Below, in pieces: positions 4,085 to 56,309 of a DNA stretch of 56,309 nucleotides. Numbering within the stretch: position 1 is the first letter of the stretch; every line of letters begins with the position of its first letter. The notes under the pieces are model-generated. The model was not told the DNA's origin, searched no databases, and saw only the letters and a program-made list of their open reading frames with translations. This DNA is from a virus. The translations under genes were made by a program, and so were the position numbers. The stretch is from IMG/VR virus record IMGVR_UViG_3300031957_003334, positions 1-56,309 of that record; one strand, 5' to 3'.

Positions 4085-4087
4085 GTT

Positions 4088-19100: not shown

Positions 19101-22100
19101 CGGCAGTATTTGGCAAAGGTGCGTGATTATATTTCCAGCCTGGAACGTCCGGGCATACACTGCCGTCATTATTTTCTATGGTTGCTGTTGGGCTCTTAAC
19201 ATTTCTTTTAAATTGTCCTGGGTATCCAAACCGAACTTTTGGTCTCTCCAGTACGTGGCTTTCTACGACTGTCCGAACCTCTTTAGCAAAACGAGCGGAA
19301 GCAGGGAAAAGTTGCTCAATCAATTCCGACATCGATGTATCGATCCACTTATAGAAATTAACATATTTTTCAAAATCTATTATACGAGTATCAGAATTGC
19401 GGAAAAATATTTCCCTCATTTTTTCTAGAGACTTATAGTCTTGTCGATATTTGTATACGGGCTCACCAATTAAATTGTTCATCTCCTCAATGGATGCGAA
19501 AAGTTGTAACATTCTTTCAGATATGTTTTTGTAGAGGCTCTTTTCTACTGCATAAAAGTAAGATACAGGTCGTTGACTACGGTTAAATACTTCATCATCA
19601 CTTACTACAATATTTACCATATCGCTGCTGACACCGTATTCTGGGACCTGAAGTTTTTGAGAATAGGTATATTGTTTTAAAGCCGTAGTTGAGTTGGGTT
19701 GGAAAAAGTCTCCACGACCCGTGTGCTGCCTGAGATTTAACTTAGAGAAATTGTCTCCCTGATAGTTACTCAAATAATCAGTGGAGTTTGAACCAGATGA
19801 AAAATCGTCTACCCAAAATCTACCAGATGCGTCACTTCCTGTTACATTATTAAAATCCCAATTTAAAGCAAGTGTTTGAATCTCTGGAACAAACACGCCT
19901 GGAGCGTTGTTTTGAAATTTATAAGCGTTTCTGTACGGATTTAGTCTACCAAAACTATCTGTTTCTTTTGCGTGTAGGTCCACTGTCCCAGTCGGAAGGT
20001 AATCTGTCCAATACCTGACACTAGAGACTCTTACATCACTTGTAACGAGATAAGATCCTGTAAAGTCTGTTCTTTCGGCTCCCGCATAAATTCTTTTAGC
20101 AAGGTTAAGATACTGAGAGCCTGAAATATAACTTACTTGCTTTTGTTCTGTGAAGCTATTTCTTAGTAACCCAGTGTTATAATTATAGCCGCACAACTCT
20201 ACAGTATAAGAACTTGAGGCAATAGAAGACCCATCGCTAATATCTGTACCAAAAACTCTTTGAGCGAAAGGATATTTTGGGGCTCTAACACTGAGTGCTA
20301 GGTTCCATTTTTCATTTTCATACACGTTTTGGAAAATACTACTAGTAAGGATTACATTATTGTTTCTGTCCAAAACCGCAAAGTAAACATCTTTTACCTC
20401 GCTTGTAGGCGAAAAAATCTCAGCATATGTACTTGGTGACCTAATTGCTTGAACTCTTAGACCGAAGTCCATATATTGTGTCGCCCATTGTAGGGCTGTA
20501 GATTTGGGGGAATTATATTGGGGTGTATGAAACCCAAAAAGCGACGAAGTTTCAACAACTGGTACAGTGTATGATAATGTGTCTTTGGTGCTCTTATCGG
20601 GAAAAACAACTTCGCCTTCAAGGGTAAACGCAAATTCATTAAAAGTGGTTTCGTGACTTCCAGTGGGAGATGATCCAGAAATTAACCCAAAAGAAGATTG
20701 TGGTCTAGAAGAATCATAATACTGATACACTGTGCCGAAGGCATCTTGCTGGTTTCTCAGCCCAGAAAAGTCAACATACTTTTTATTACTTACACCATCC
20801 AAATAATTGCTTCGAAGAATAAAATCTTCATTGTTTGGGTAGATGTTAACTGCTACAATATTTTCACCAACACCGAGACATCGAATAAAGTTACGAATAG
20901 CCTTCTCGGTGCCCTTTGATTTGTAGATATAAACTAAGTTATTATATATGTTTTTGTAGATTGAGTTTTTTATGGAGAACAACGCCTGGTCAAAATTGAT
21001 TTGCTCATCTCTTTGAATAAACTGTCCTAAAGTTCCAATGTTTTCGAAAAGTTCTGGTGCTTCTGTCCCTAGTGTTTCGATGAGTCTGTCATTATAAGGA
21101 AATTCGTTAAGACTCCCCGTTTGACTCCCGCTTGCATATGTGTTGTTTCTTAACTTTGAAACCGCACTTATTTGAGCATGTAAAACATCAAAATAGTTCG
21201 ATATAACCTGAACCAAGTCTCCTAGTTCTTGAGAGTTTTGATTGTCTTGTTCTCTAATCCACTTTGGAAAGGTGTTAATAAGACCGGCTGAGTTGTTCAA
21301 GTCATAATAATTTCCGAGGCTTATTAGTGAATTTTTGTTGGTGTCATACGGGATAGTTTGACGAACCGCCGGGTCCTTAGTTTCGAATTTAGATGTCAGT
21401 GACATCTGATCAATAGCGGAAGAGGTGTTACGAGTCAGCGTACTGCTATAACCTGTAAAGGAGCCATTTGATATACGACCCGAATAATCGAGAACAACCT
21501 TATCTACACTTCCAGTTCCCGTAATGCCTTCATTAAACTTATAATATAGACCTAAAGCAACGTTTGCGTCATACTTGTTTGTGCCGCCATTTACGTGCGT
21601 AAACCAATATCTACCGATATCTTCTGCGCTTCGATTGGTCTTCCAAAACCTGAACTCGTCTAAAGACGCAGATAATTTACCTTGACCCACCTGATCGGCG
21701 GCGGCACCAAATTGATCTGCTAGCGCATAAGTTGTAGACGAAGTGACAAGTGCTCCAAGGTTTGCCCTTAAGGATCCTGTAACTAAGCCTATTTCAGCAC
21801 CGGCAACAATATCCTTTTGAAAACAAACACCATCAACATAAAAGTCAAGTTTTGGCTGTTTCAGACTTGTGTCAAAAGCAAAAGCATAATGATGCCAACT
21901 ACCACTCGATAAATCAAGCCCACCTGTGGTCGGAACTGGAGTAGAAAAATAAGGAGCCGGTGCTGTTGCACCAGACTGAACAGTTACATAAAACCTATCT
22001 TGTGCCCCGCCATTACTAGCAGATATATAAATCTGAAAACGACCATAAGAATTTGAACTAGCAGTAACTCCGTTCCATAGGTCAAGTATGACCTGGCGGT

Positions 22101-26417: not shown

Positions 26418-26425
26418 TATTTATA
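26418..26425 (-). promoter_or_regulatory. Candidate T4-type late promoter element (TATAAATA)
   Basis: The coding strand carries an exact TATAAATA, the T4 late-promoter -10 consensus, 11 bases before the gp25-like start. The window encodes a gp55-type sigma factor that would read such elements. Against it: it overlaps the stop codon of the upstream gene, a start site would leave almost no leader, and AT-rich phage DNA makes this octamer by chance. Confidence 0.3.
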
Positions 26426-29400
26426 TATCACCAAAAGCTGCCTGTTGCTCTCTTATTGACTGAACTAGGTCCTCTATCTGTTGTACTTCTTTGTTCTCCT
26501 TTGCTACCGCCCGACGGAAATCGTCCGGAGTCCTTGGTTCATCCCCTGGTTCAACCCCTCTAGCCTCGGCGTTAGCGTCTGCCTCCGTATCAATAATAAC
26601 ATCGTAGGAATATTCCACAAAATTTTCCTGCGCTAATTTTCTTACACTCGTAGCATATTCTGCATATAACCTAAACTGAGTCATAAGATTTGTGTATAAA
26701 TCATTGATGGTGTTTTGAACTTCTTCAGGCTCGCCCAGTCTGGATATATTTCTTCCTGCTTTTACGGTATCACGCAAAATTCCAGAAGTCTGAAATTGGG
26801 TCAATTTCCTGTCGTTCCCGATTAGACCTAAAAATGCTGCTGGCTCCAGAACTGTATCTAACATATCTTCAATGTCTAATTTTATAATTCTCTTTGCATA
26901 ATTGTGCCACTGTTGTATAGCAACAATGTTCCCGTTGGTACCCTGACGGTCTTGATCTAGGACACCGCCGAGGGTGGGGATCCACCGGAGCCACTCCGCA
27001 GGATTAACAAGCCTATCAGCGATGCCGGCAGTTCTTGCTGCTTGATCGACCAAATTTTGTGCTTCCAGGGCTAATCGTGCTAGTTCGGGTCGCTGGGCAT
27101 TTATCTCGTCTAAAATTTCATCCATACGCTGTATGGCAGCATTTCCAGCAGCAGCCTCTTGTTGCTGTTCGGCAAGATAATTTTCTAGATCCTCCATAGT
27201 ATAAAAAGTTATACCCTGAATAAATACTGGGAAACCTTGGTATCCGACAGAATATACAGGTAACCGAGTAGGATTAACCGCAGACAAAAAAGAATCGTCA
27301 GCAATTGCTATCTTTGAATTTGTTTCGAATTTGTATTTTCGATACCTGTCCATTATGTTAGCAATTTTGTCGTACATAATAATTTGTAAAGCCGTAAACA
27401 AAGGAACTGGAAGGTAATATAACGCATCGTGAGAAAACCAGTTTTCTGGGGTGTGGTCAAAAATTGCTTGATTGTTTACAGGGTTTTCTCTCCACCCTGG
27501 ACCGAGAATATAATCTTTTTGCTCGTCGGTGGCTTCAACCATTTGTTGCGGAACTGGAAGACCTGCTGCTCCGTAAAGCCATCCGCCCATTCCACGATTG
27601 CCAACAATAGAAATCAAATCATCACCGCTATTCAGCATATTTTCTTTCAATTGCAGCAGCATAAGTTCTGCCATCTGTCTATATCCGTTCTCTATGTTTT
27701 CGAAAAAATTACTATTAATAGCACTATAAGGGGTAGTATCTTGTCTTCTTATTACAAGGGATATAGACTGGACAATTGTCTCCCGAAATTTATCCTCGGC
27801 ATTCATGTCGTTTGTGAATATTATTTTTTCGTTAGAAAATTGTCTCTGTTCATACTCTTGTGTGGAAACACGACCAAAGACTTTTTCTACTTTGTCTATG
27901 TTTTGTAGAAATACTCCATATAACTTTTTTTCTTCAAGCTCTTTTTTGATTTTTTCAAACATATAAGAGCCTATCGCCCGAACAGTGTCTGGAGTGTTCC
28001 AAAACAGATACATTCTCATCAAAGGAGCAACGTTCATAAAGAATTTAGCCACTCTTTTTTCAATAGAACCCAACAATGCCTTGGCAATTGCCTCCTCAGG
28101 AGTTGTAATACAATCATCGTCATTCGCTACAAAATAAGGTTGATAAAATGATCTAATAGTAGAAGGCAGACGAGTTCTGCCTATTGGAGAAAAGTAAAAA
28201 GTTGATATGTTCTCATAAAGAGTTTCGCTAGCATTGGCTGCCACTTTTATAGCATTCTGCGAAGCGTCCACATTGGACCAGTTAAAAGTTCTGAGAGTGG
28301 TATTAAAAAGTTCAGGGTACACTTCTGGCAAATTAACCCTAAGTTCTGGTTGAGGAATTAAAGAGTATCCTGGGGCATCTTGGCTTGGAAGGTTTGAAAT
28401 CTCCAGGGGTGCTTTGAGGATTGTTTCTGTTTCGCCATCTGGTAGCATAATCTCGTAATCATAATCTTGTTGGAAAAGATTTAATTTAATTCTTCCATCT
28501 ACTGGTGATGGCTGCCCTTCGGCAAACGGCGTCAGCATCAGTCGCACGCCAGCGCCTAATTCCACAAATGCATCACCGTCTGTTGCCGCAGTATTGCTTA
28601 AAAATGCACGATTCCCATTATTACCGCTAAATAACAGATTTTCTGGTATTGCTCTTCTAAACAGACCAAATTTATCTCTTTGGTCGAACAATTCACCCCC
28701 AAATGCTGATTGATAAAATGCTGGTGCTCGGGGTTGTGGAACTCGGTCATCGTCATTAAACATATCGGAAATAGAAGCAGCAGCAGCATTACTTAAATCA
28801 GCAATCCACCGAAGAATAGCATCATAAATTCCTGCGTTTGGAATGCTATCTAGAAAATCCTCAAGCTCAAGTTGAAAATTAAATTTTCCTTCCAACATAG
28901 AACAAAGACTAATGAGTTCTAGCCTTTTCGAGTTGACTGCCTCTTCCATTTGTTGCTGCTTTTGCACATCTGAAAGGTCAAACTCCCAGCGCAAATCGGG
29001 AGGCACAGCCTCCCTATCGTCACAATATGATTGAATCGCAGTTATGGGATCTTCTCCGTAGAGTGCCTCTCTTGCTCCCTCTGACAATTGGTTTCCTATT
29101 TCACCAAAGTAGTTTACTATATTATCCTTATCAAACCCCAACACAGCGTATCGAACATCTGGCTGATCATATGGTGGGTCTGCTCCTCTTCGAGGACTTA
29201 AAGATTCTTGATACATGCTAACAACTATTTTATCGTCCCACTCTATTTGTGGTCTTTCGTTGAATAGTGCCTGGGTATCTACCTCTCCCGCATTTATCAT
29301 TTCATCAATAGTGTTTATAAGAACTTCAGAGGCTGTACCATCAAGAAGTTTTCCTAATTCGGTGGGAGTAACAATAGTAGAAACGTCTCTGTGAAGTTGT

Positions 29401-31874
29401 AGAAGCTGATCTTGTCGAGGAGGGGAAGTTATTACCCGTCGATCCTTATCTTCATTGTAAGAAACTTCTTTGTTTGTGAGATTTAAATCCGTAGCAATTT
29501 CTACAACATCAATACCTCTAATAAGATCATTGAGCATGATGCGACCATAGTTTACGCCCTTCCTAGAATCTGCTAGTCCAGCAGCGGCATTATATGGATC
29601 ATCTGGTCCACACCCTAACGCAGCCTTGAAAACATCCTTAAGAACACCCAAAATTAACTGCTTTATAAATGCTATAAGCATGAGTTGAATTTGTTTTTTC
29701 CAGAGCGACCAAAGATTGCTGTTAAACCCTTTTTTAAAACTAAATCTTAGTGGGGGATTTACAATTCCTCGTGTTACTAATTTATTAATTTCCTTTGGGG
29801 TACCAGCAGGCTTAAGGATTTGATCTTCAATAGCAGTTCCAATAAGATCAGTGATACAAGATATCTCACTATTAACCCAGTTCTCAGCATCTCTGGCTAT
29901 AGCAGATGGATCTTCGGCATAGCGAATGGCATCATTTAATCTCTCTTGATTTATTTTTTCTTTTATAAGTTCATCACGCACCAACAAGGCAGCATACTTT
30001 GTGAGGCTCCAAACTGGCGCTCTACCATTAATTAATCTATAGATGGTAAATGCTTCCTTGAGAAGCGTTGATTGCACGCTGTCACACGAGCCCATAGCAC
30101 TGGTTACAGAATAAAAAAGATCCTTCTGGCTTACCGCCATCCGAGATAAATCGCCGGGGGGTGGGTTGTCTGTTAACTGATCTATCTTTTGAAAGATATT
30201 AGGTGGTTTAGCAATTCTAAAATCTTTTCGGTCTCTTTTCCTTTGTTGTGTTGTCGGGGAAATCTTAATTTTTGGAATAACATAGGTGCTTAAAAATTCA
30301 TCCCACAAAGGTCTCTCTGATTGGTTTTGGGTACCTATTACATTATCAATCAACAAACTGTTAAAAATAAACCCAAAAGTTCGATTTCCAAATGTAGCAA
30401 AAACATCAACTGCTTTCTGAGAGGTCAAGGGGGCTTCTTCATCAACCAAAGACGAGGGAAGAAGAAAGGTGGCACCTAAACCCTTTGAATACAAAACTCC
30501 ATCAAGAATGATATAAGATATTCTCATATCCTCTCTAAAAACAAATTCAATTAAATTTGATAAATCATCATCTGTGGTTATATCGTTATACAGAAAAAAC
30601 GAACTCAAGCTGTCGTAAAAAGTTTCTAGTTTTAATATCTCTCTTTCAATGTCAAATCCCGAAACAACATCTGGTGTTATTTGTTCCGCTATCATAATAT
30701 TTTCATAGTCTTTTAATACTCTAATGGTTCCTCTGATTGATTCTTGTAATCCTCTTAGCGTAAACGTACTATGTCTTAGGCTCGTATTTTTATCAGGGTC
30801 TATTAAAAGTTCTGCCTTTTGGTACGGCTCAAAATCAATATCTTGAGTTGATTCATTCTGCGCCACGTCCTCCAAGAGATCTCCATCGATCATCGCCTTT
30901 GGAATAATAACAGCATAAACCCAACGAGAGGATGGTCTTTTGTTAAGGTATGTTCTCACCTCTACTTCATTGCGAGGAATCAATGTGAAATTTTGGGAGG
31001 AAAACTTTCCTACTAGTTTCAGTATTTCTTCAATTCCTTTCTCTTTAGCAGAGGCAATAGCGTTTCGGGTCGCTTCGCTTGAGTCTAAGAGTCCAAGGTC
31101 ATATGTTTGTTTGTTGCGAGTATTTGTTCTTTTTACAAAATAATAGTTTTCATCATTGGGGTTATAATAATATGTTTGGGATGCTTCGCCAGGCAATGCA
31201 TTATTGTACCAGTTGTAAAGATCGATCGTATCAGACTGCCCCCTAAAAGGTATGACATTTTGGTCTTCGACTGTAGAGACCGTTGGTTCAAGTAGCGATG
31301 TGATAGGGTTCCCAAAGGAGGCTCTTATTTTTCTTCGGCGAGATATTGAAAAAGTATAAGGAATAGAAATCAATTGAGAAGTGGTTTGTTTTAATAGGTT
31401 CTCTTCAGAGACATTGAATGGAACATCTGCTCTGTTTAGATCGTCGTCTATTAGGTGTTCAACCCCACTAGATCCAGTGATGGCTGCTTGGTTTTCAGGA
31501 TCTTGAGCCTCCTTGGATGTTGGAGATGTGTAGGCTTCCTCTCCACCGATGTTTAAAATTGCGCTAGAAATACGATTGAGTTGATTTATTGCTTCATTGT
31601 CTGATAGCATGTCCAAAGAAGAGTTTCCAACTCTGGCGTTTTGCGGGTAAACAGAAACATACGCTTGTATGTCTTGTATTTTTATAGAATCACCTTCGGG
31701 GATAATTCCTGGCTCCGCAGAAATTTCTAGACCGACTTCTGGGAAAAAACCAAAGTTAAGATAAGTGTCTTGAATGCCTGCCAAAACCCATTGGTTTCTA
31801 ACATTAGACCAATCATATTCAAATTGGCTGTAGAATGGGTTTATGATATTTTTTTGTCTGTTGGTTAGTGCCAT
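26421..31874 (-). CDS. Very large virion structural protein (1817 aa), family not recognised
   Basis: The protein starts TNRQKNIINPFYSQFEYDWS. It is mostly acidic, Asn/Gln-rich alpha/beta sequence without enzyme motifs. Near residues 725-755 there is one strongly hydrophobic helix (LMLIAFIKQLILGVLKDVF), an amphipathic or membrane-like segment unusual in an otherwise soluble protein. Further on are long predicted helices with Ala/Glu/Gln content (about 1560-1620 and the last 60 residues), suggesting coiled-coil parts. It sits immediately upstream of the gp25-like gene and downstream of the spike-like gene, so a baseplate or central hub role is likely. A classical tape measure is less likely because helical content is not dominant. 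Confidence 0.75.
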   Translation of the reverse strand: MALTNRQKNIINPFYSQFEYDWSNVRNQWVLAGIQDTYLNFGFFPEVGLEISAEPGIIPEGDSIKIQDIQAYVSVYPQNARVGNSSLDMLSDNEAINQLNRISSAILNIGGEEAYTSPTSKEAQDPENQAAITGSSGVEHLIDDDLNRADVPFNVSEENLLKQTTSQLISIPYTFSISRRRKIRASFGNPITSLLEPTVSTVEDQNVIPFRGQSDTIDLYNWYNNALPGEASQTYYYNPNDENYYFVKRTNTRNKQTYDLGLLDSSEATRNAIASAKEKGIEEILKLVGKFSSQNFTLIPRNEVEVRTYLNKRPSSRWVYAVIIPKAMIDGDLLEDVAQNESTQDIDFEPYQKAELLIDPDKNTSLRHSTFTLRGLQESIRGTIRVLKDYENIMIAEQITPDVVSGFDIEREILKLETFYDSLSSFFLYNDITTDDDLSNLIEFVFREDMRISYIILDGVLYSKGLGATFLLPSSLVDEEAPLTSQKAVDVFATFGNRTFGFIFNSLLIDNVIGTQNQSERPLWDEFLSTYVIPKIKISPTTQQRKRDRKDFRIAKPPNIFQKIDQLTDNPPPGDLSRMAVSQKDLFYSVTSAMGSCDSVQSTLLKEAFTIYRLINGRAPVWSLTKYAALLVRDELIKEKINQERLNDAIRYAEDPSAIARDAENWVNSEISCITDLIGTAIEDQILKPAGTPKEINKLVTRGIVNPPLRFSFKKGFNSNLWSLWKKQIQLMLIAFIKQLILGVLKDVFKAALGCGPDDPYNAAAGLADSRKGVNYGRIMLNDLIRGIDVVEIATDLNLTNKEVSYNEDKDRRVITSPPRQDQLLQLHRDVSTIVTPTELGKLLDGTASEVLINTIDEMINAGEVDTQALFNERPQIEWDDKIVVSMYQESLSPRRGADPPYDQPDVRYAVLGFDKDNIVNYFGEIGNQLSEGAREALYGEDPITAIQSYCDDREAVPPDLRWEFDLSDVQKQQQMEEAVNSKRLELISLCSMLEGKFNFQLELEDFLDSIPNAGIYDAILRWIADLSNAAAASISDMFNDDDRVPQPRAPAFYQSAFGGELFDQRDKFGLFRRAIPENLLFSGNNGNRAFLSNTAATDGDAFVELGAGVRLMLTPFAEGQPSPVDGRIKLNLFQQDYDYEIMLPDGETETILKAPLEISNLPSQDAPGYSLIPQPELRVNLPEVYPELFNTTLRTFNWSNVDASQNAIKVAANASETLYENISTFYFSPIGRTRLPSTIRSFYQPYFVANDDDCITTPEEAIAKALLGSIEKRVAKFFMNVAPLMRMYLFWNTPDTVRAIGSYMFEKIKKELEEKKLYGVFLQNIDKVEKVFGRVSTQEYEQRQFSNEKIIFTNDMNAEDKFRETIVQSISLVIRRQDTTPYSAINSNFFENIENGYRQMAELMLLQLKENMLNSGDDLISIVGNRGMGGWLYGAAGLPVPQQMVEATDEQKDYILGPGWRENPVNNQAIFDHTPENWFSHDALYYLPVPLFTALQIIMYDKIANIMDRYRKYKFETNSKIAIADDSFLSAVNPTRLPVYSVGYQGFPVFIQGITFYTMEDLENYLAEQQQEAAAGNAAIQRMDEILDEINAQRPELARLALEAQNLVDQAARTAGIADRLVNPAEWLRWIPTLGGVLDQDRQGTNGNIVAIQQWHNYAKRIIKLDIEDMLDTVLEPAAFLGLIGNDRKLTQFQTSGILRDTVKAGRNISRLGEPEEVQNTINDLYTNLMTQFRLYAEYATSVRKLAQENFVEYSYDVIIDTEADANAEARGVEPGDEPRTPDDFRRAVAKENKEVQQIEDLVQSIREQQAAFGDI

Positions 31875-47044: not shown

Positions 47045-48286
47045 TTACATACGACCAAAAATAATCACTTGATGAGTGGGATTTCCAGATGCTGTTTTTC
47101 CAACATTGTGGACTCGATAGTTTTTCTTCATCTTACAAATTCTTTCAATATCATAATAGCATCCAAATCTTTCATCATAATCATCTAAAACCCAGATAGG
47201 GTTTTCGGATTGGAATTGTTTAAGGTTGATTATGTCTGCTATAACGGCTCCCTTATCGTGAGAGGCATCAATATAAAATAAATCTACATCTTTAACGTTG
47301 TGTGATTCAAGATGTTCTTTCAGGTCTTTTGAAGTCCCGCTAACAAAAGTTGTATTGTTTTGAAATTTTTCAACATATTTTTCATTTCTAACATCTCTAA
47401 TATCAGCACTCCAAACATGCCCTTCTGTATCTGACAAACCCTCAGCAAAAGTGTAAAATTGCCAACCTTCGGCTGTTCCCATTTCTACTATTTTTTTACA
47501 CCCTGCTATCTTAGCCAAAGATGACAAATAAAATCCACGTTTTGGCAGAATCTCTAAACACTCTTTTGCGGTTTCTTCAGTAAGTTTATAATTTTTTGTT
47601 TTTTGTATCTGTATGAGAAGATTAATATCATCCCATATTTGTTTATATTCTGAAGGAACTGTGAGTTCTTTTATTTTTCCAACTTTTTCATATGTTTTTG
47701 AAAGTAAATCGTTTTTTTCCAGGACTATTTCCCAGTTCATACCAAAAACATTTCGAGGTATTGATTCGTTTTTGATACATAAACTCTGATGAAACAAGGG
47801 CAACAGATCATGATCTGGCTTATTAACATAAAATTCTGTATATTCATCTTGGTCTACGTCTATCTGAAACTGGAAGAGTGCCTTGCCTCCAACTTTTAAC
47901 ACTCTTTCAATTTCAGATGCTTTTTTTTCAGGGTAAAGCGAATGATCATAGACGTTGCTAAATACAAAATCAAATTCGCCGTCTTTATATTGAAGATTGT
48001 GCATATCCCCCTCGACGACGTGCGGAGGACACGGGACAATATCTATACCACAAGCGTCTACGCCCAATTCTTTTAATGCTACCACTTCTTGACCAGTTCT
48101 AGCACCTATACATAGTGCTCTTTTGTTTCCCGTGTCAAGACCGTGGCGTACAAACAACTCCTTAAATCCCTGTAACTTGAGGTTCCATTCTTCGTTGAGC
48201 CATTTTTGGCGACGGACTGGATCTTCTGTTTTTGTTTTTTGAAACCTTATATACTCTTCATAAGATTTATGCCTACCTGTCGTCAT
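47045..48286 (-). CDS. Two-domain SAM-dependent methyltransferase
   Basis: The 413-residue protein contains two class I methyltransferase units. The N-terminal one (about 50-160) has ALCIGARTGQEVVALKELG (motif I) and GIDIVPCPP plus FDFVFSNVYDH. The C-terminal one (about 260-405) has KKIVEMGTAEGWQFYTFAE, then VDLFYIDASHDKGAVIADI and WVLDDYDERFGC, in the style of the MTase_24/FkbM-like and macrocin-type families. The fusion could place two methyl groups or use one domain for binding. In a glycan island O-methylation of sugars is the likely use. Confidence 0.82.
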   Translation of the reverse strand: MTTGRHKSYEEYIRFQKTKTEDPVRRQKWLNEEWNLKLQGFKELFVRHGLDTGNKRALCIGARTGQEVVALKELGVDACGIDIVPCPPHVVEGDMHNLQYKDGEFDFVFSNVYDHSLYPEKKASEIERVLKVGGKALFQFQIDVDQDEYTEFYVNKPDHDLLPLFHQSLCIKNESIPRNVFGMNWEIVLEKNDLLSKTYEKVGKIKELTVPSEYKQIWDDINLLIQIQKTKNYKLTEETAKECLEILPKRGFYLSSLAKIAGCKKIVEMGTAEGWQFYTFAEGLSDTEGHVWSADIRDVRNEKYVEKFQNNTTFVSGTSKDLKEHLESHNVKDVDLFYIDASHDKGAVIADIINLKQFQSENPIWVLDDYDERFGCYYDIERICKMKKNYRVHNVGKTASGNPTHQVIIFGRM

Positions 48287-49184
48287 TTGTTTGCTCCGTT
48301 ATAAATTTCAAATACGCTTGAGATACTTTTTTCATATCATACTCACTATCATAAGAATTTTTAAGTTTTTGTGAAAAGTCTATCTGTGGGGGAGAATAGA
48401 GACGAACAGGCTCTAGGTCCCATTCATCTTCTTTTATGACAACGGCACCAATCCCAGCAATCTCTTTTGTTCCTCCAGAAGAGGAGCAAATAACTTGCGC
48501 ACCGCACGCCCTAGCATCAACTACAACATTTGGACAATGATCAAGCCACGCTAAATGGATAAAATAATCAGATGCCTTCAATATAGTTAAAACATTTTCA
48601 TATTTTAAATTCCCTAAATATCTTATCCTAGGGTCATCAATTGGTTTGTCATCGGTTTTCCCCATTACAAACAAAACGTCATTATCGTGACTGTGTTCTA
48701 GGAAATACCTTATATTCTCTTGTAGTCTTTTGTGGGGTCTCCAATGAGAAGCACAGGACCATATTTTGTTGTGTTTATTTTTTATGTGTTCTGGGACATC
48801 TGGAATTGATTGTATCAGCTCAAGACTGGCACCATTGTGAATAATCGTGCTGCTCTTATGTTCGCCAAAATATTTGGTCACTAATCTTTTATTAAAATCA
48901 CTCTGAAAGATTACACCATCTGCAACCTTATACGTTTCTAATATTGGTTTGTTTTGTTGGGTATAGTTTTGTTCTGAATTAAAATATATCCCATCTAGTC
49001 TTTGGAATAGTTTTCCAGATGATGGAACTTTGATTTTCTGAATAAACGCCAACGTTGCCACTGGGTCCTGTAAGGCGTTGAATGTAATTCCCTGGTTCCT
49101 CAGGCAATCAAAAAGTTTCCTTCCAAAACAATTGGGACCGGAGTTGCTCGTAAGATCTACGTTCTGGAGATGAATGTTTGTCAT
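48273..49184 (-). CDS. GT4-family glycosyltransferase (303 aa)
   Basis: The short GT-B enzyme has IIHNGASLE (donor-side His/Asn/Gly), WSCASHWRPHKRLQENIRYF and DYFIHLAWLDHCPNVVVDARACG followed by SSSGGTKE, the GT4 donor-binding stretch with a conserved acidic and Gly-rich region. The N-terminal half is short but Rossmann-like. Donor and acceptor are unknown. It is coupled with ATGA-like overlap to the upstream GT2 fusion and overlaps the methyltransferase by 14 bases. Confidence 0.85.
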   Translation of the reverse strand: MTNIHLQNVDLTSNSGPNCFGRKLFDCLRNQGITFNALQDPVATLAFIQKIKVPSSGKLFQRLDGIYFNSEQNYTQQNKPILETYKVADGVIFQSDFNKRLVTKYFGEHKSSTIIHNGASLELIQSIPDVPEHIKNKHNKIWSCASHWRPHKRLQENIRYFLEHSHDNDVLFVMGKTDDKPIDDPRIRYLGNLKYENVLTILKASDYFIHLAWLDHCPNVVVDARACGAQVICSSSGGTKEIAGIGAVVIKEDEWDLEPVRLYSPPQIDFSQKLKNSYDSEYDMKKVSQAYLKFITEQTNDDR

Positions 49185-50812
49185 AGGCTTGCCCGAGAGT
49201 ATTTGTTTTTTGCTCTAATTTCTAGCATATTCTTGTGCTGTTGCTCTTGGGCAGTCTTATTAACAGCATTCGGATTTCCTACGTTATAAACGCACAACAC
49301 CTCTTTAACATAAGAAGATTTTTCTCCTGCCATTTCTAGTGCAGGTAACATTATGGCTTGATCATAGGATGATTTAAAATATTCACCAGTTGAATTTAAA
49401 AAATCTCTTTTATCTATATTTTTCCAGACCTTAAACTTTAGCGTCTTTAGGTGAGATGCTCTCCAAGTATCGTCTCTAAAACTATTCTCGACAACAACCT
49501 CATCGGCGTATTTACTTGATTCTTGTCCTACTCTGCCAGTTGGAAACTCAATAAAACTCCCATAAGTCACCAAAGACCCATTATCATAATGCTTATCTAA
49601 TACATCCAGTACATATTTATTAGACAACCAATCATCACCATCTAAAATAACAATAACCTCATCATCTTCAGGGGCGGCTAGATCTACTAGATCACTAATA
49701 TTTTTCAGTGCATATTTCTTTTCTTCGTTTTTAACTAACACAAAGCGAGGATCGTCTCCTATCAACTCTTTGGCATTATTAAACGTTTTATCCGTGGATA
49801 TATCGTCCCCTACATAACATCTCCAACGTTGCTTCTTCTGATCTTTTATGCTTTTGAGTGCGTGAGATATCCAAGACTCAGAATTATAGACAGGCACAAT
49901 GAAGACATATTTTGTATTACTGTCTTCTTCACTAGGCTTTGGGACCAAGGATGCATTTGTGTTTTGGTGTAATATTTCCCAAAAATAGTCTGCTCTGCTT
50001 CCCAAGTAATTACATATCTTTGATGGATCTGTATCCTTAAACCAATCTTCATTTTTGTGTTGAACATTGTTATTAAGTCTTAGATCACATCCGAGCAAAG
50101 CTGCCTCAATCACTAGTCTTGGGCAAGTATCTGACCCTTTGGGTAAAAAAATCAACCCTTTATGTTGAGATATTTTTTGTAGCATATTGTCATAAGGAAT
50201 ACCTTGTACCACTTCATATTCTAAGTTATTTTCTGTAGCATACAATATAGCGTCCTCAGTTCCCTTGATCCAAGACTGTGAACCCATTATAAGGTAAGAA
50301 TTTTTCTTATCTTTGGGCGTCTCTCTGAGGGTGCTTAACTTGTCTAGCAAATCATCATTAAAAATAGAACTCAAAACATAATTTTGCTTGTTTCTCAAAA
50401 CTGGAAACCTGCTAAAGTATTTTTCGCTTTGGTTTTTGCTCATCCAAAAAACACTTGATGCTTTTGCTAAAAAAACAGCAAACAACTTTCCAAAAGAGCT
50501 ATTTTCACATCTACATTCGCCTTCTACTTCTTCATGTTTCTCAACAGATCTCATAGAGCAAAATTTATAATCAAATTCAACTACAGAGTAATTTAATGTT
50601 TTTATTGCTTCCAAATAACAATTTTTTGCCATAAACGAAGTGTTAGTAAAAACCCAATGATAATCTTTCAGAGAATTTATTATGTCGGGAGTTACTTGTG
50701 CAGAATACAAATTAATTATCGGGCTCCAAGCCTTATCTAGAAGACCCTGTGTTGAAAGTTCTGCCCCTCCAGTGTAGTCTTTTAAGAAGGCATCCGAAAC
50801 AAATACATACAT
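49181..50812 (-). CDS. Bifunctional glycosyltransferase: GT-B (GT4-like) plus GT2 domain
   Basis: The 543-residue protein has two catalytic-type units. Residues up to about 270 resemble a GT-B enzyme: YLIMGSQSWIKGTEDAIL, IFLPKGSDTCPRLVIEAALLG. Residues about 300-540 are GT2: FIVPVYNSESWISHALKSI, GDDISTDKT, then ILDGDDWLSNKY with the DxD-type metal site. GT2 enzymes polymerise or transfer sugars from UDP donors, and the fusion suggests that two successive linkages are made by one protein. It begins at ATG 50812, coupled to the next GT4 gene by a one-base overlap. Confidence 0.83.
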   Translation of the reverse strand: MYVFVSDAFLKDYTGGAELSTQGLLDKAWSPIINLYSAQVTPDIINSLKDYHWVFTNTSFMAKNCYLEAIKTLNYSVVEFDYKFCSMRSVEKHEEVEGECRCENSSFGKLFAVFLAKASSVFWMSKNQSEKYFSRFPVLRNKQNYVLSSIFNDDLLDKLSTLRETPKDKKNSYLIMGSQSWIKGTEDAILYATENNLEYEVVQGIPYDNMLQKISQHKGLIFLPKGSDTCPRLVIEAALLGCDLRLNNNVQHKNEDWFKDTDPSKICNYLGSRADYFWEILHQNTNASLVPKPSEEDSNTKYVFIVPVYNSESWISHALKSIKDQKKQRWRCYVGDDISTDKTFNNAKELIGDDPRFVLVKNEEKKYALKNISDLVDLAAPEDDEVIVILDGDDWLSNKYVLDVLDKHYDNGSLVTYGSFIEFPTGRVGQESSKYADEVVVENSFRDDTWRASHLKTLKFKVWKNIDKRDFLNSTGEYFKSSYDQAIMLPALEMAGEKSSYVKEVLCVYNVGNPNAVNKTAQEQQHKNMLEIRAKNKYSRASL

Positions 50813-52059
50813 TACTCTAATTGAGAGAAAAGATTCTCTATTTCCTCATCGGTGGTATCGACCTCTAAAACAGAATCTACATACTTTTTATAGATATTTT
50901 CTTCTGAAAACTCTTCATCTAAATATTCTTTGAGTTGTTGAGCCATCTTCTGCTTGGAGTTAATTGCTTCATAAGAGTTTCTCAGTGCTTTTTTGTAAGA
51001 GTCTTCTTCAACATAACACCACTTTGTACCTTCATTGATAACGCCTTTCCAAACAGCCGCCGGCTCAACTTCTTTCAAATCATATTTGATTTTTGTAAAG
51101 AGGGGCGTTTTTTTGACTTTTCCAGATTTTTCATTTTTAACAGGAGCATATAGAAAATCTACCTGCCCTGACCATGCCGGTGCAACAACTGGTAAGCCAC
51201 TATAAGCCGCCTCAAAAATAGGCAACCCGTACCCCTCTCCGTGTGTCGTAGTAATATAGGACTTAATCCCAGGATGTTTATAGAGAGAATGTATTTCTTC
51301 CTCAGAGAGATTACCGTGAATTAGATAAACTTGACACTTACGGTCTGGATATTTATCACACCAGCCTTTGACTTTTTTTGTTGTCATAGCATCATCAATG
51401 ATCGAGTGGTTTCCTGTGTGAAACTTCAAAACAAGACCAATCTCTTCGTCATCGTGAAATTCCTCAATAAATTGTTTTACAAGGACACCAACATTTTTCC
51501 TTGGCGATATTTGGGCTATAGCAAGAAAGTTAAAATCAGTATCTAGCTTTATGTCAATATCTACTGTATTTTTTTCTTTTACTGGGTATCCAATAACTTC
51601 TACAGGTGTTTCTAAATTAAGAATTCCTGATTCACCTGTTTTGGTGTTTTGATAAGGGTATGAAACATTCATCGATGTCTTGGAGTGCTCAGAAACTACA
51701 ATAATTTTATCAACTTTGTTGCACGCCTGGAGCCATTCCGGAGATATTTTGTCCGTTTCAATACCAGCCGTTACACCGATATTAACTGTAGCATGATTCT
51801 CCCATTCTGTTGGCACAGTTACCTGCAACGACACATCAAACTGACCGTTTGTATGTGCCATTTTATTCATACACTGCAATATGTCCTGTACTTCTGGGTC
51901 AGAAACGTTTATGGGCCAATTTGAAACGCCCCATTCAATAGGCACCACATACAAGTCAAATTTGTCTGGTCGGCTCTTTAATGCTCTATACACTAATCGA
52001 GCGTGTTCACCGTACCCGCTTTTACTTAGGATTGGTCCTTTTAATAAAACTCGAATCAT
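50812..52059 (-). CDS. GT4-family glycosyltransferase (415 aa)
   Basis: N-terminal motif LLKGPILSKSGYGEHARLVYRAL has the Gly-rich acceptor loop seen at the start of GT4 enzymes. The donor domain has NFLAIAQISPRKN, VYLIHGNLSEEEI, TTTHGEGYGLPIFEAAYSGLPVVAP (the EX7E-type region) and then a Trp/Gln pair (WSGQVDF). Length is normal for the family. A phage enzyme of this kind likely uses a host nucleotide sugar. It overlaps the upstream GT4 gene by four bases and belongs to a tandem of three GT genes. Confidence 0.85.
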   Translation of the reverse strand: MIRVLLKGPILSKSGYGEHARLVYRALKSRPDKFDLYVVPIEWGVSNWPINVSDPEVQDILQCMNKMAHTNGQFDVSLQVTVPTEWENHATVNIGVTAGIETDKISPEWLQACNKVDKIIVVSEHSKTSMNVSYPYQNTKTGESGILNLETPVEVIGYPVKEKNTVDIDIKLDTDFNFLAIAQISPRKNVGVLVKQFIEEFHDDEEIGLVLKFHTGNHSIIDDAMTTKKVKGWCDKYPDRKCQVYLIHGNLSEEEIHSLYKHPGIKSYITTTHGEGYGLPIFEAAYSGLPVVAPAWSGQVDFLYAPVKNEKSGKVKKTPLFTKIKYDLKEVEPAAVWKGVINEGTKWCYVEEDSYKKALRNSYEAINSKQKMAQQLKEYLDEEFSEENIYKKYVDSVLEVDTTDEEIENLFSQLE

Positions 52060-53321
52060 AACTTTTTAAATCTCCATTTAATGTGATTTTTTCTATTCTC
52101 CCAAGAACCATGCTGCTCGTATATATTAAGCATACATTGGACCCACTTATTGCCAAAATCAGAGAAATTATAGTTTTCCTCAACGTGTTTCCTGCCGGCT
52201 TTTCCAAGTTTTTGGCGCTCCTCAGAGGATAAATCATAAATTTTCTTAAGGGAGTTAATAAAATCTTCTTTAGAAATCCGGTCCTCGTAGATCCAAGGCA
52301 CCTGCTGTGATCCGATTACTGATTTTGAAGTTGGCTCAATACCTACACCAAACCAGTCTGTTCCGTTTGTGACCTGCTCTTGAAGTCCTCCAGTCATATT
52401 TACAATAATTGGAGTTTCGCACGATAACGATTCAAGAGTTGCTAAACCAAAACCCTCAGCATCTGATATGTTAATAGTACAATCTGCAAGATTATAGAGC
52501 ATCGACAAGTCTTGAGGAGACATCTTGTTTATAGAAAACCCTATCTGACCATCTCGCAGACCTAAGTGTTCAGCAATAACGCCCAGTGGCTGTCCGTGGG
52601 GATCATCTAGATCTGTGTGCATCAAAAGGGTGGCTTTATCATGACCTACTTCATCTAGAAATTCTTTAAACCAATAGATAAGCGTTCCAGACTGTTTTCT
52701 TCGGGCGTTACGATTATTCCAAAAAAAGACGACCTTGTTTTCCATATTATATTGTTTGCGAATATTTGAAATAATGTCTCGGTCTTCTTGGGAAAACCTT
52801 CTCTTGAAGATGCTTAAGTCCACAGCGTGAGGAATATATTGTTCATCCACGTTAGGACTAACAGTTTGTACAATATCGCTAGTGACCTTAGAGATGGTCA
52901 CTATTTTATCATTCGAGTTATATTTTGACTGATTAAACGTTGGGTAAGGGTAATTGTCCCAAACGTGATAATAAACCATCGGGACATTCTCTCTAATTTC
53001 ATCCTCCATATGCCACAACCACTCATAAAAACGAGGATCAGTCATAAAATATAAAATGTCGGGCTTAAACTGTAGCATAAAGCGGCGAACATCCTGCTGG
53101 GTTCCATACCCTTTTACAGGGAAAATTAGCCAATCTTCGCCGTATCCATCTACCTTAGTAGGTTCATATGATGGGTGGTCTACAGCACCACCAAGAGATA
53201 TAACTTGAAACTTTCCAGACTTTAGAAGTGCCTCAATTACATACTTTGTTTGTGTTCCAACCCCAGATGGCAAAAGAGGGTGGTCACTAATCGTTAAAAC
53301 TTTTATTTTCTTGTCGGACAA
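52056..53321 (-). CDS. GT4-family glycosyltransferase (421 aa), TTG start
   Basis: The start is TTG 53321 because AGGAGG lies seven bases before it, at the nuclease stop; the upstream ATG at 53366 would place 15 residues inside the nuclease gene. Motifs: SDHPLLPSGVGTQTKYVIEAL (acceptor loop), FFWNNRNARRKQSGTL, then ISDAEGFGLATLESLSCETPII (donor-site EX7E region) and NMTGGLQEQV. It is a canonical GT4 enzyme and the most upstream glycosyltransferase in the island. Donor and acceptor are unknown. Confidence 0.86.
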   Translation of the reverse strand: MSDKKIKVLTISDHPLLPSGVGTQTKYVIEALLKSGKFQVISLGGAVDHPSYEPTKVDGYGEDWLIFPVKGYGTQQDVRRFMLQFKPDILYFMTDPRFYEWLWHMEDEIRENVPMVYYHVWDNYPYPTFNQSKYNSNDKIVTISKVTSDIVQTVSPNVDEQYIPHAVDLSIFKRRFSQEDRDIISNIRKQYNMENKVVFFWNNRNARRKQSGTLIYWFKEFLDEVGHDKATLLMHTDLDDPHGQPLGVIAEHLGLRDGQIGFSINKMSPQDLSMLYNLADCTINISDAEGFGLATLESLSCETPIIVNMTGGLQEQVTNGTDWFGVGIEPTSKSVIGSQQVPWIYEDRISKEDFINSLKKIYDLSSEERQKLGKAGRKHVEENYNFSDFGNKWVQCMLNIYEQHGSWENRKNHIKWRFKKL

Positions 53322-53328
53322 AATTGTT

Positions 53329-53334
53329 CCTCCT
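53329..53334 (-). promoter_or_regulatory. Ribosome binding site fixing the TTG start of the GT4 gene
   Basis: AGGAGG on the minus strand, seven bases before TTG 53321. It overlaps the nuclease stop codon (TAG), so the glycosyltransferase is expressed by reinitiation from the nuclease message. Confidence 0.55.
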
Positions 53335-54172
53335 ACGAACAGTATTCCGTCTGGTAAAACTCGCAAGTACCGAATCGGTCTTTACAGTTCGTACAAGCAG
53401 CACGGTTTTTAATATAGTTCTCTTTGTTAATATTATGCAACGCTTTTGTTAAGGCGTTAAGAGCATCTGTTGTTCTTTTTTTCGCTGCCGTCACCCGCAC
53501 GAACTCGGCTTTCTTTCCAGCCTTCGCAGTTCGTTTGAGCAAAACGAAGTGACAGTCAACGTCTTTCGGGTCAACTTCATACTTCTGGGCATAGAAGTGT
53601 TTATAGAATACGAGTTGGTAGGCGAGGATCTTGTCGCTCTTCTTTTCACGACGCCATCCCCAGGAGCAGGTCTTCCAGTCAATCAGGTGGATTTTCTCAT
53701 CCTTCTTGGAGTAGACTACAAGGTCAATAAAGCCTTTGAACTTTTTTTCTGCTTCCGTGAATTCTGTGATGGGTTCGTAGAGTTGCTCTTCGGCTGCCAA
53801 CACTTCCCAGTCCTCACCCAGTTTACCGAACTTGTCGGCAAGGCAGCGGTAAAGGTCGGGAATGATTTGAACGCCATTTAGCAGCCACTCTTTGAGGGCG
53901 AAATCCCTTTTGGCTTCTAGTTGGGCATCATCGGGCAGGGCGTTAAGTTCGGCGATGAATTGCTCTTTAACTAATGCCTCAATCGTGCCCGGCTCTCTGT
54001 ACTTTTCGGGGGAAGTCAAAGTAAATTCACAAACAGTGTGAATCGCCTTCCCAAAAGCAGTGTAGATATTGCCCTCAAACTGGGCAACCTTGTCAATGTA
54101 AGTGAGTTTGTGGTAGTGAGGGCAGATGTGCCAGTTCTTCCACTCGGAGTAGGAAATGTGTTTGCCAGCCAA
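53333..54172 (-). CDS. PD-(D/E)XK nuclease, RecB/Cas4-like with cysteine cluster
   Basis: The 279-residue protein, start TTG 54172, opens with SYSEWKNWHICPHYHKLTY (family Cys C17). The active site is GKAIHT (H45), FKGFIDLVV (D150) and IDWKT (D165, K167), with a following Tyr/Gln helix (AYQLVFYKHF). C260, C263, C270 and C278 form a cluster at the C-terminus that, with C17, suggests an Fe-S or zinc site as in AddB/Cas4. It is probably a DNA exonuclease in replication or recombination. GC content is higher than neighbours (30/60 in line 53641-53700, against 16/60 in line 43741-43800), a sign of different origin. Confidence 0.85.
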   Translation of the reverse strand: MAGKHISYSEWKNWHICPHYHKLTYIDKVAQFEGNIYTAFGKAIHTVCEFTLTSPEKYREPGTIEALVKEQFIAELNALPDDAQLEAKRDFALKEWLLNGVQIIPDLYRCLADKFGKLGEDWEVLAAEEQLYEPITEFTEAEKKFKGFIDLVVYSKKDEKIHLIDWKTCSWGWRREKKSDKILAYQLVFYKHFYAQKYEVDPKDVDCHFVLLKRTAKAGKKAEFVRVTAAKKRTTDALNALTKALHNINKENYIKNRAACTNCKDRFGTCEFYQTEYCS

Positions 54173-54196: not shown

Positions 54197-54868
54197 TTAT
54201 TTATTATAGAGATCTTTGTGTATTTCGTCAATTTTTAAATACAAAAATGGGCTAATTTTTTTCAATGAATCTTGCTTGTCTAAATAGTATGCCTCAAAAC
54301 CAGTAGCAAAATATTCCCGTAATGATACCGCAGCATACGGTCTAATAAAGAGACCAGAAGTGAGCATTTTTAACATACTTTTTCCAACCCTTTTGTACAA
54401 GAAATTGTCAAAAGCCGTAGAAAACCTAACGTCACTAAAATCAAATTCATCAGTCCAATATCCCTCGGACCTAATTTCATATTCTAATTGCTTTCTTTTT
54501 TTGAGAAATTCTTTCTTAATACTTTCGTCGCCATATATCTTTTCAAGATGGAGTGTCTCAAGATGGTGTGCAAATTCGTGGACGATATCATCCAAAATGT
54601 CCTGATGATTGTCTTGTTGATTTGTTATATGGAGATAACCATCTCGGTAGAGAGCGTTAACTTCTCTTTCGTCGAAGTCTTTCAGGTGGTTGATTTTTAT
54701 ACCTTTCACTCCTTTGAAATAATGAGAAGGAAAGTTTTTCTCTAAAGCCTTGAGTATATGGTCTAAATTTATTCCATTAGGTAAAAGATCTATCTCTTCT
54801 ACTTCAATCCCCCCAAGACGAAATCTTTTTGGGCTGTTTTCCATTTTTTCTAAAATATATTCTCTCAT
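54197..54868 (-). CDS. Putative zinc metallopeptidase-like protein (HExxH)
   Basis: The 223-residue protein has HEFAH at residues 97-101, the HExxH zinc motif, in a helix beginning DDIVHEFAHHLET. A downstream acidic residue in REYFATGFEAYYL (about 187-199) could be the third ligand. The preceding strand NALYRDGYLHITN resembles the substrate-side edge strand of metallopeptidases. No signal peptide is present, so it acts inside the cell or virion. It overlaps the PhoH gene by ATGA. Similar proteins are found in phages, but the target is unknown; an anti-toxin or host-protein protease role is only a guess. Confidence 0.7.
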   Translation of the reverse strand: MREYILEKMENSPKRFRLGGIEVEEIDLLPNGINLDHILKALEKNFPSHYFKGVKGIKINHLKDFDEREVNALYRDGYLHITNQQDNHQDILDDIVHEFAHHLETLHLEKIYGDESIKKEFLKKRKQLEYEIRSEGYWTDEFDFSDVRFSTAFDNFLYKRVGKSMLKMLTSGLFIRPYAAVSLREYFATGFEAYYLDKQDSLKKISPFLYLKIDEIHKDLYNK

Positions 54869-56172
54869 AGTATTTCCGCAGCCAATGTTGCTAGTTTTGA
54901 TCTTTCTCCCTTATAAAGAGTGACGTGACCAGAGATTTGAAATTCTTTAAACTTTTCAACAGCATGAGTTAATCCATTCGAAACAGCATCCACATAGGAA
55001 TTATCGATTTGTTGAATATCGCCTGTCAAAACTAACTTAGTACCGTGACCAACCCTTGTTATTATAGTTTTTAACTCGTGGGCTGTTAAGTTTTGTGCCT
55101 CATCAACAATCATAAATGCGTTTGAAATTGATCTGCCTCGGATATACGTCATTGCCTCTATTTCTACTACTCCTTGTTCTATTTGCATATCTAGAGCAGT
55201 CTTGTCTCCAAATAGATATTCTAAGTTATCACGCAAAGGGGCAACCCAGGGCATCATTTTTTCTTCCAGGGTTCCTGGTAAAAATCCGATATCTCTACCC
55301 ATTGGTTGAACTGGTCGTGTTATGATTAACTTGTCGTATCCGCCTTGAGATCTGGTACTATGAAGGACTTGTTCTAAACCACAGGCGGCTGCGATGAGTG
55401 TCTTTCCAGTGCCGGCTTGTCCCGTTAAAGATACGATATGAACATCTTTATCGAAAAGCAAATCCATAGCAAATTTCTGTTCTTTATTGTTAGCAGACAA
55501 TCCCCAAATATCTTTATAGGTAAGAATCTTTTTTAGGGGAGAATTTTTATTTGTAAATCTGGCAATGGCTGACTTACTTTCATTAGATTCTGATTTTAGA
55601 ATCAAAAAATGATTGGGATAAAGTTTTGTTTTTTGTTCAGGTAAGTTTATTTCACCACCATTATAAAATTTGTCAATTTGGTCGTCCGGCAAAAAAATCT
55701 CTGAGATTCCATCATATAACTTTTCTACCGACTTGACGGCTTGTTGTGGTTGGTAATCATAACACTCGATCCCGAAAGAATCACATTTGACCCTCATATT
55801 CAAGTCTCTGGATATGATTGCTACATCATGTCCCTCTAATTTTAGTCTTAGTGTGACGGCAATTATTTTATTATCTGCATCATTTGGTTCCATTCCTGCT
55901 GGCATATATCTTGGATCATATTGTGCTGCAAAAACTCTTCCTTTGCCACTTCCAAGTGGAACACCTGCAAATAAACTTCCTTTTTTTCTTAAATTGTCCA
56001 AAACACGATTCATCATCCTGGCGTTTAAACCGGCTGTATCCTGTCGATGTTTGTGTTTATCTATCTCGTCGAGAACCATTGTTGGAATAGCGATATCGCT
56101 GCGACCAAAAGAGAACAACGATTGAGCCTCTGTTAAGTAAACATTTGTATCTAGTATTAGAGTTTTAGTCAA
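54865..56172 (-). CDS. phoH: PIN-PhoH fusion ATPase (PhoH2-type)
   Basis: Residues 1-130 form a PIN nuclease domain with the acidic set D8 (LDTNVYL), E36 (VLDEID), D98/D100 (NDADNK) and D123 (SRDLN). From about residue 210 there is the PhoH ATPase, with Walker A GQAGTGKT near residue 250, DKLIITRPVQPMGRDIGFLPG and Walker B FMIVDEAQN, then TGDIQQID. The combined protein (435 aa) is the PhoH2 form, an RNase/helicase in cellular work; the phage-typical form is the ATPase alone. The start is TTG 56172 with AGGAGG nine bases before it. It is the first protein gene after the terminator. Confidence 0.9.
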   Translation of the reverse strand: MTKTLILDTNVYLTEAQSLFSFGRSDIAIPTMVLDEIDKHKHRQDTAGLNARMMNRVLDNLRKKGSLFAGVPLGSGKGRVFAAQYDPRYMPAGMEPNDADNKIIAVTLRLKLEGHDVAIISRDLNMRVKCDSFGIECYDYQPQQAVKSVEKLYDGISEIFLPDDQIDKFYNGGEINLPEQKTKLYPNHFLILKSESNESKSAIARFTNKNSPLKKILTYKDIWGLSANNKEQKFAMDLLFDKDVHIVSLTGQAGTGKTLIAAACGLEQVLHSTRSQGGYDKLIITRPVQPMGRDIGFLPGTLEEKMMPWVAPLRDNLEYLFGDKTALDMQIEQGVVEIEAMTYIRGRSISNAFMIVDEAQNLTAHELKTIITRVGHGTKLVLTGDIQQIDNSYVDAVSNGLTHAVEKFKEFQISGHVTLYKGERSKLATLAAEIL

Positions 56173-56218: not shown

Positions 56219-56241
56219 AAAAAAGCCGCCCGAAGGCGGCT
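56219..56241 (-). terminator. Intrinsic terminator after the RNA gene
   Basis: On the minus strand AGCCGCC-TTCG-GGCGGCT forms a seven-pair stem with a TTCG tetraloop followed by six T. It begins at the CCA end of the RNA gene, with the final A shared. This is a textbook Rho-independent terminator and separates the RNA gene from the PIN-PhoH operon. Confidence 0.92.
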
Positions 56242-56309
56242 GGTGGAGGTAGGGAGAATCGAACTCCCGTCTTGTCTAGTTCCGCAGAAAGGTCGTTCAC
56301 AAGGTTAGG
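56241..56309 (-). ncRNA. ssrA: 3' end of a tmRNA-like RNA gene (5' part outside the window)
   Basis: Only the last 69 bases are visible. They end in an encoded CCA with discriminator A, a 3' acceptor strand TACCTCC, and a perfect T arm (GGGAG-TTCGATT-CTCCC, 56252-56268). No anticodon stem can be formed at the place a class I or class II tRNA needs one, though about 41 bases lie before the T arm. Instead the upstream bases read CTAACCTTGTGAACGA and ACTAGAC, like the 3' pseudoknot and P2 parts of tmRNA. tmRNA rescues stalled ribosomes. A diverged tRNA remains possible. Confidence 0.55.

Follow-up and report, generated by a model that had tools for sequence, protein, structure and literature searches.

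The tmRNAs of mycobacteriophages and of Bacillus phage G are one-piece molecules. According to excerpts of the published work, ten phages with a tmRNA were listed in 2014 (PMC4131195), and in 2022 tmRNA was reported in 402 phage genomes with 133 unique structures (PMC9004378). The portions of two further reports at hand describe huge phages with tmRNA and SmpB (PMC7162821) and phages of Bradyrhizobium elkanii with tmRNA (PMC12656738). The DNA analyzed here, referred to as the window, is an IMG/VR virus record of exactly 56,309 bases that ends where a tmRNA gene is cut. Its right edge carries the 3'-terminal 69 nt of a one-piece tmRNA gene (Table 1), which we regard with high confidence as a complete, functional gene of a lineage of large uncultured phages, truncated in this record by the right end of the contig.

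Table 1. Coordinates of the tmRNA 3' end and its neighbors at the right end of the window.
Feature	Position	Strand	Basis and remarks
tmRNA, 3' 69 nt	56241..56309	-	RF00023 match; missing 5' part (about 255 nt) past contig end
Acceptor stem, 3' strand UACCUCC + ACCA	56241..56251	-	Sequence; U70 is the partner in the G3-U70 pair
T arm, 17 nt, GGGAG-UUCGAUU-CUCCC	56252..56268	-	Sequence and fold; covarying stem (helix 10) in relatives
Helix 2, 3' strand, from tRNA-like domain to pseudoknot ring	56285..56292	-	Homology: alignment and pair counts
Intrinsic terminator straight after CCA, between tmRNA and phoH	56219..56240	-	GC-rich hairpin and T run; fold; similar hairpin in relatives
phoH, PhoH-like ATPase, 435 aa, next gene downstream	54865..56172	-	PHROG 2765, E 3.9e-110

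The tmRNA 3' end was identified by searching the final 410 bases of the window against Rfam with permissive settings. The match to RF00023 covers all 69 nt, corresponds to model positions 307-374 of 374, is flagged as 5'-cut and reaches 28.3 bits at E 8.8e-10, with the next-best rivals in these bases at E 0.39 or worse. Scaled to the length of the whole window, the E-value is about 1e-7, so the match is not due to chance; the score of this cut copy compares with an RF00023 cut-off of 47 bits. Because the gene is cut, ARAGORN called neither a tRNA nor a tmRNA in the whole window and Rfam at the gathering threshold returned nothing for it. The first-pass annotation had described a phage-borne tmRNA 3' end with encoded CCA, T arm and terminator and no tRNA with an anticodon stem, and this description is confirmed by the RF00023 match and by full-length relatives. 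CCA, T arm and terminator all lie on the minus strand with the hairpin and T run directly following the CCA, ARAGORN calls no tRNA and the T arm comes without an anticodon arm. The interval proposed there is exact for the tmRNA, while the terminator falls just outside it (hairpin stem at 56224-56241, minus strand). The 69 nt differ at 3-4 positions from the corresponding 3' ends of the nearest relatives, and the exact 31-nt tmRNA 3' end is present in 32 viral contigs. phoH starts 68 nt past the CCA end on the same strand. Upstream of the tRNA-like part, the window continues with CCUAACCUUGUGAACGACC, a stretch that can be aligned to the ring region in full-length relatives. The alanine acceptor features visible in the window are U70 and CCA only. 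Because the 5' four-fifths of the gene, the promoter and the tag lie past the contig end, the window copy may be an inactivated one. Elsewhere on the minus strand, the window contains very long open reading frames of 3176, 1817 and 1402 aa (13144-22674, 26421-31874 and 7987-12195, respectively), none of which has a PHROG match at E 0.001, and a glycosyltransferase-like gene cluster (48273-53366) adjoins the exonuclease/phoH region.

The window record ends at the cut, and the roughly 350 further bases that the first-pass annotation had called for were supplied by relatives. Using PhoH as query, we identified 76 loci in viral contigs. All 43 loci whose PhoH shares 69% identity or more (L002-L042, L047 and L077) have a tmRNA 3' end immediately upstream of phoH; 42 of these tmRNA copies are complete and one (L002) is cut by the contig end. 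No tmRNA was found beside phoH in five loci with 39-54% PhoH identity (L043-L046 and L048), three of them on contigs shorter than 15 kb, and 28 partial PhoH matches (L049-L076, 38-49% identity) are left out of the tmRNA counts. A search with the PK1 block returned 49 contigs. phoH lies downstream of the tmRNA in all seven contigs found only through the 31-nt end or the PK1 block (L086, L090, L095, L096, L109, L143 and L153). The covariance-model check suggested earlier was carried out on relatives: 48 of 51 records score above the RF00023 cut-off, and those falling short are the window, G001 (L002, cut by the contig end) and G049 (L043). The 5' ends likewise agree with what had been anticipated, GGGGGTA/GGGGGTGA starts being found. 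The relatives are full tmRNAs with tag frames, and a tRNA with an insertion, which the first-pass annotation had named together with a missing tag frame as grounds for abandoning its proposal, was rejected. ARAGORN missed 12 of the 43 relatives, namely the cut L002 and eleven complete copies, so one-piece phage tmRNA genes of this type are probably under-counted.

Several neighboring observations were made in these contigs. The window (at 56309) and L002 (at position 1) are two closely related contigs that both end inside the tmRNA, possibly because near-identical tmRNA alleles in coexisting phages break assemblies. The phoH match of L143 (3232-5784) is split, with residues 1-342 at 3232-4230 (43% identity) and residues 301-435 at 5380-5784 (73% identity), and the gap of about 1.1 kb between the parts possibly represents an intron, an intein or an inserted gene. 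A six-gene tRNA cluster in one relative includes a tRNA-Ala with anticodon AGC (L138:319-394), which is unusual in bacteria. The 284-kb contig of L048, from a distant phage, carries a different one-piece tmRNA (L137:1896-2259) with the tag ANDNVEYDYALAA that is not beside phoH.

The fold of the tmRNA among the relatives is pseudoknotted and shows strong covariation. With identical sequences merged, the 47 complete copies give 38 distinct ones, 322-341 nt long and with a mean column identity of 82%. The scored structure consists of the acceptor, T arm, helix 2, two pseudoknots, a tag-end hairpin and two further helices, and 94.9% of cells pair in it across the 38 distinct copies. Both sides change with pairing kept in 24 of 56 pairs, compared with a shuffled mean of 11.9, and 0 of 500 shuffles reach 24. 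Slid-structure controls gave at most 10 such pairs, a comparison that favors the scored structure because it was derived from the same sequences and from RNAalifold run on them. The third acceptor pair, G3-U70, is G-U in all 38 distinct relatives and is the known alanine identity element. The T arm is paired in 100% of cells and the nearly invariant PK1 strands in 99-100%; since PK1 and most of the acceptor hardly vary, there is little covariation in these parts. In the second pseudoknot, five of eight pairs changed on both sides. Weak spots are pair 261-283, unpaired in 30 of 38 copies, and pair 37-306, unpaired in 18 of 38. The sequence and structure features that define RF00023 membership are present in the relatives, comprising a score above cut-off, an alanine-type acceptor with CCA, a T arm without anticodon arm, pseudoknots and a tag frame ending in Ala-Ala and stop.

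A tag frame, the other element that the first-pass annotation had placed beyond the right edge, is found in 46 of 46 parsed copies, and in every one the tag ends in Ala-Ala followed by a stop. This tally leaves out the cut L002 and L016, the latter with the tag ANDNFNLEMAA. Tags are mostly 11 residues long and follow the pattern ANDDF....AA, with GCN as resume codon and UAA as stop. The most frequent are ANDDFQLAQAA (17 copies), ANDDFNMEMAA (8), ANDDFEMEMAA (5), ANNNAELALAA (5) and ANDDFQLALAA (4); six others occur once each and one copy (L038) encodes Ala-Ala only. Among 37 distinct copies, with L038 left out, tag codons 1, 2, 10 and 11 show synonymous changes only, which points to selection acting on the encoded peptide. 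At the third-last position, Met stands in 13, Gln in 15 and Leu in 9 of 37 distinct copies; ClpX classically favors Leu-Ala-Ala. In L038 (tmRNA at 5607-5933 of contig IMGVR_UViG_3300009129_001478), the resume codon GCA is followed by GCU and UAA, giving a two-residue Ala-Ala tag, and GCAGCTTAAAAAC occurs twice in this tmRNA, one copy lying at the resume codon and the other where the tag usually ends. A pattern scan for further two-residue tags among this phage tmRNA lineage returned only the contig of L038, so a single assembly underlies the Ala-Ala tag. Two-residue tags are described, in the available part of the source, for 25 sequences of a tmRNA database, especially from Fermentibacterota (PMC11915505).

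Most copies are preceded by a probable promoter of their own. In 34 of 38 distinct copies, a near-consensus promoter of the sigma-70 type matches TTGACA-N17-TATAAT at 10 or more of the 12 positions, and 9-17 nt separate the end of its second hexamer from the mature tmRNA 5' end. For those 34 copies, a score as high came up in 0-2.75% of 400 draws of random 60-mers taken from the respective loci. In the other four (L003, L034, L036 and L039) no promoter scoring at least 10 was found. At the opposite end, the CCA is followed by a terminator hairpin in the relatives listed. A strong sigma-70-type promoter in most relatives suggests transcription by the unmodified host polymerase, and judging from these motifs the tmRNA unit is probably transcribed on its own by the sigma-70 host polymerase. 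The use during late infection that had been proposed for this tmRNA is not supported, as most relatives have the promoter just upstream; it argues against a late role, without excluding one.

No SmpB gene was found in 49 records, mostly fragmentary contigs, in a search whose control was positive in 10 of 14 genomes, and host SmpB is therefore presumably used. We infer that the phage tmRNA fits the SmpB and AlaRS of its host. Blast searches across several genome groups found no host for the tmRNA phages. The tmRNA of L004 had no match in 10 genomes at E 0.001 and matched 26 of 398 genomes in the phylum of G051 at E 0.01. With the tmRNA of L039 at E 0.001, matches were obtained in 20 of 395 genomes (phylum of G052), 15 of 301 (phylum of G054) and 66 of 288 (phylum of G053, where the best match spans 79 nt at E 3.8e-7). 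In the class to which G408 belongs, the tmRNA of L008 matched 31 of 369 genomes at E 0.01, the best match spanning 31 nt at E 1.7e-7; as the queries differ, these genome counts are not strictly comparable. Most of the matches cover only the conserved T-arm/acceptor end and some are tRNA-Ala genes. In E. coli genomes, a phage tmRNA query matched nothing at E 10. A tmRNA-like pattern was found in 17 stretches of genome contigs, with a tmRNA called by ARAGORN at the matched place in three (L110, L119 and L120), and L118 looks by eye like an unrecognized tmRNA.

The tmRNA and its neighbor phoH agree poorly in their divergence. Distances of PhoH and tmRNA correlate with a Spearman coefficient of 0.17 (595 pairs, 35 distinct copies), and near-identical tmRNAs occur beside diverged phoH genes, as in L005/L020 (2.2% vs 33.6%) and L010/L021 (3.1% vs 30.3%). 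On the phoH tree, the five tag classes imply no fewer than 15 changes; the shuffled mean is 20.3, and 1 of 200 shuffles is as low. This poor agreement, together with the tag-class changes, suggests that tmRNA alleles may have been exchanged between phages, with slower tmRNA evolution as a contributing factor. In a tree of 8 phage copies and 12 cellular rows with low inner support, the phage tmRNAs form a separate clade and share no more than 55% identity with the cellular ones in the comparison; they were thus not recently copied from any host gene included there. A broader and, in our judgment, rather unlikely interpretation is that the tmRNA acts as an exchangeable proteolysis-tag cassette. 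Ribosome rescue would be the reason for keeping the RNA body, while tag alleles (LAQAA, MEMAA, LALAA, NNNAELALAA and bare Ala-Ala) would be recombined between phages with diverged neighbors, because selection would act on the fate of tagged proteins across hosts, including tags that weaken recognition by host ClpXP.

The unit seen in the relatives, a sigma-70-type promoter, a 322-341-nt tmRNA and an intrinsic terminator directly upstream of phoH, is consistent with a role in ribosome rescue. The transcript would be processed by host RNase P and charged by host AlaRS, and host SmpB and EF-Tu would bring it, during infection, to ribosomes that have stalled on broken mRNAs. Such a ribosome would then move to the tag frame and release at UAA, handing the tagged fragment to host proteases. 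The likely benefit would be that ribosomes are kept free while host and phage mRNAs get cleaved during takeover. Improbable in our estimate is a genuine tmRNA that serves mainly some purpose other than quality control, with supposedly altered or minimal tags evading or redirecting host proteases or with host proteins being tagged for recycling. The spread of third-last residues relative to the ClpX preference, the Ala-Ala-only relative and the number of tag-class changes on the phoH tree all speak for such a role, and amino-acid recycling is an idea raised in the available part of PMC9004378. However, the terminal Ala-Ala is kept in all parsed tags.

The remaining alternatives concern what the window itself contains. 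With only a tmRNA 3' end visible there, it could be an attP-type remnant, that is, a 3' fragment of a host tmRNA on a temperate phage or island integrating into ssrA, a frequent integration site of which fragments occur in prophages (PMC9004378 and PMC11915505, as excerpted). This is very improbable and largely refuted, given the full gene in 42 of 43 close relatives, the low identity to compared cellular tmRNAs, which excludes a recent host copy, and the result of a search for tyrosine integrase (PF00589), which covered 23 records out of the 49 and found it in none, its control being positive in 14 of 14. The visible tRNA-like-domain and helix-2 sequence would also suit a decoy consisting of that domain alone, titrating SmpB and inhibiting host trans-translation, and such a molecule exists in mycobacteriophage DS6A (PMC4131195, in the part at hand). 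The continuation of the window into ring sequence and the tag frames kept across the lineage make this extremely unlikely; it was rejected on the full-length relatives with tags, a decision that the window alone cannot provide. That a host stretch was misassembled onto a phage contig might be suspected from the tmRNA lying at the very contig end, in L002 as well, but 42 relatives contain the complete gene inside the contig upstream of phoH. The probability of this explanation is vanishingly small, host contamination being refuted for the lineage, and the window shows the phoH-terminator-tmRNA order of the lineage. A permuted two-piece tmRNA was likewise rejected, since the coding part precedes the acceptor end in complete copies and the CCA is followed by the terminator. 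A complete one-piece tmRNA gene cut by the contig end remains the preferred reading.

Compared with the standard one-piece bacterial tmRNA (ssrA, RF00023), the present genes share the G-U third acceptor pair, the T arm, the lack of an anticodon arm, PK1, a GCN resume codon, a tag ending in Ala-Ala and the UAA stop, and differ in being phage-carried, 322-341 nt long, equipped with their own PK1 signature and at most 55% identical to the compared cellular tmRNAs. Mycobacteriophages (Bxz1, Wildcat and others) and Bacillus phage G also encode tmRNA (PMC4131195, in the part available) but belong to a different phage lineage. When one copy (the L004 tmRNA) was compared by blastn with 50,697 annotated phage records, no match reached E 1e-5. 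Methylophilales phage Melnitz and pelagimyophages resemble the present phages in having a tmRNA without integrase, and an early promoter was proposed there; their tmRNAs are permuted two-piece molecules, in Melnitz with a glutamine riboswitch, whereas the present one is in one piece with the terminator directly after the CCA (PMC9004378, as excerpted). The permuted tmRNA Rfam model scores 15.5 bits in the window against a 47-bit cut-off. L038 is similar to the Fermentibacterota with two-residue Ala-Ala tags but occurs in a phage among siblings with 11-residue tags (PMC11915505, in the portion available). DS6A, too, carries a tRNA-like domain in a phage, described in the available parts of PMC4131195 and PMC11915505 as having no tag frame, while the genes described here are full tmRNAs. 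The present lineage was not found in open-licence literature, and searching that literature for the tag string led to unrelated subjects only, among the matches listed. The lineage adds a coherent, synteny-anchored family of one-piece phage tmRNAs, and its natural tag variants, including a two-residue tag, offer a way to ask why phages carry tmRNA, for ribosome rescue or for the fate of tagged proteins. Phage tmRNAs being already known, it is a further lineage of one-piece phage tmRNA and not a new kind of system. What is new is the lineage itself, tmRNA alleles that fit the phoH phylogeny poorly, and Met or Gln as third-last tag residue in 28 of 37 copies.
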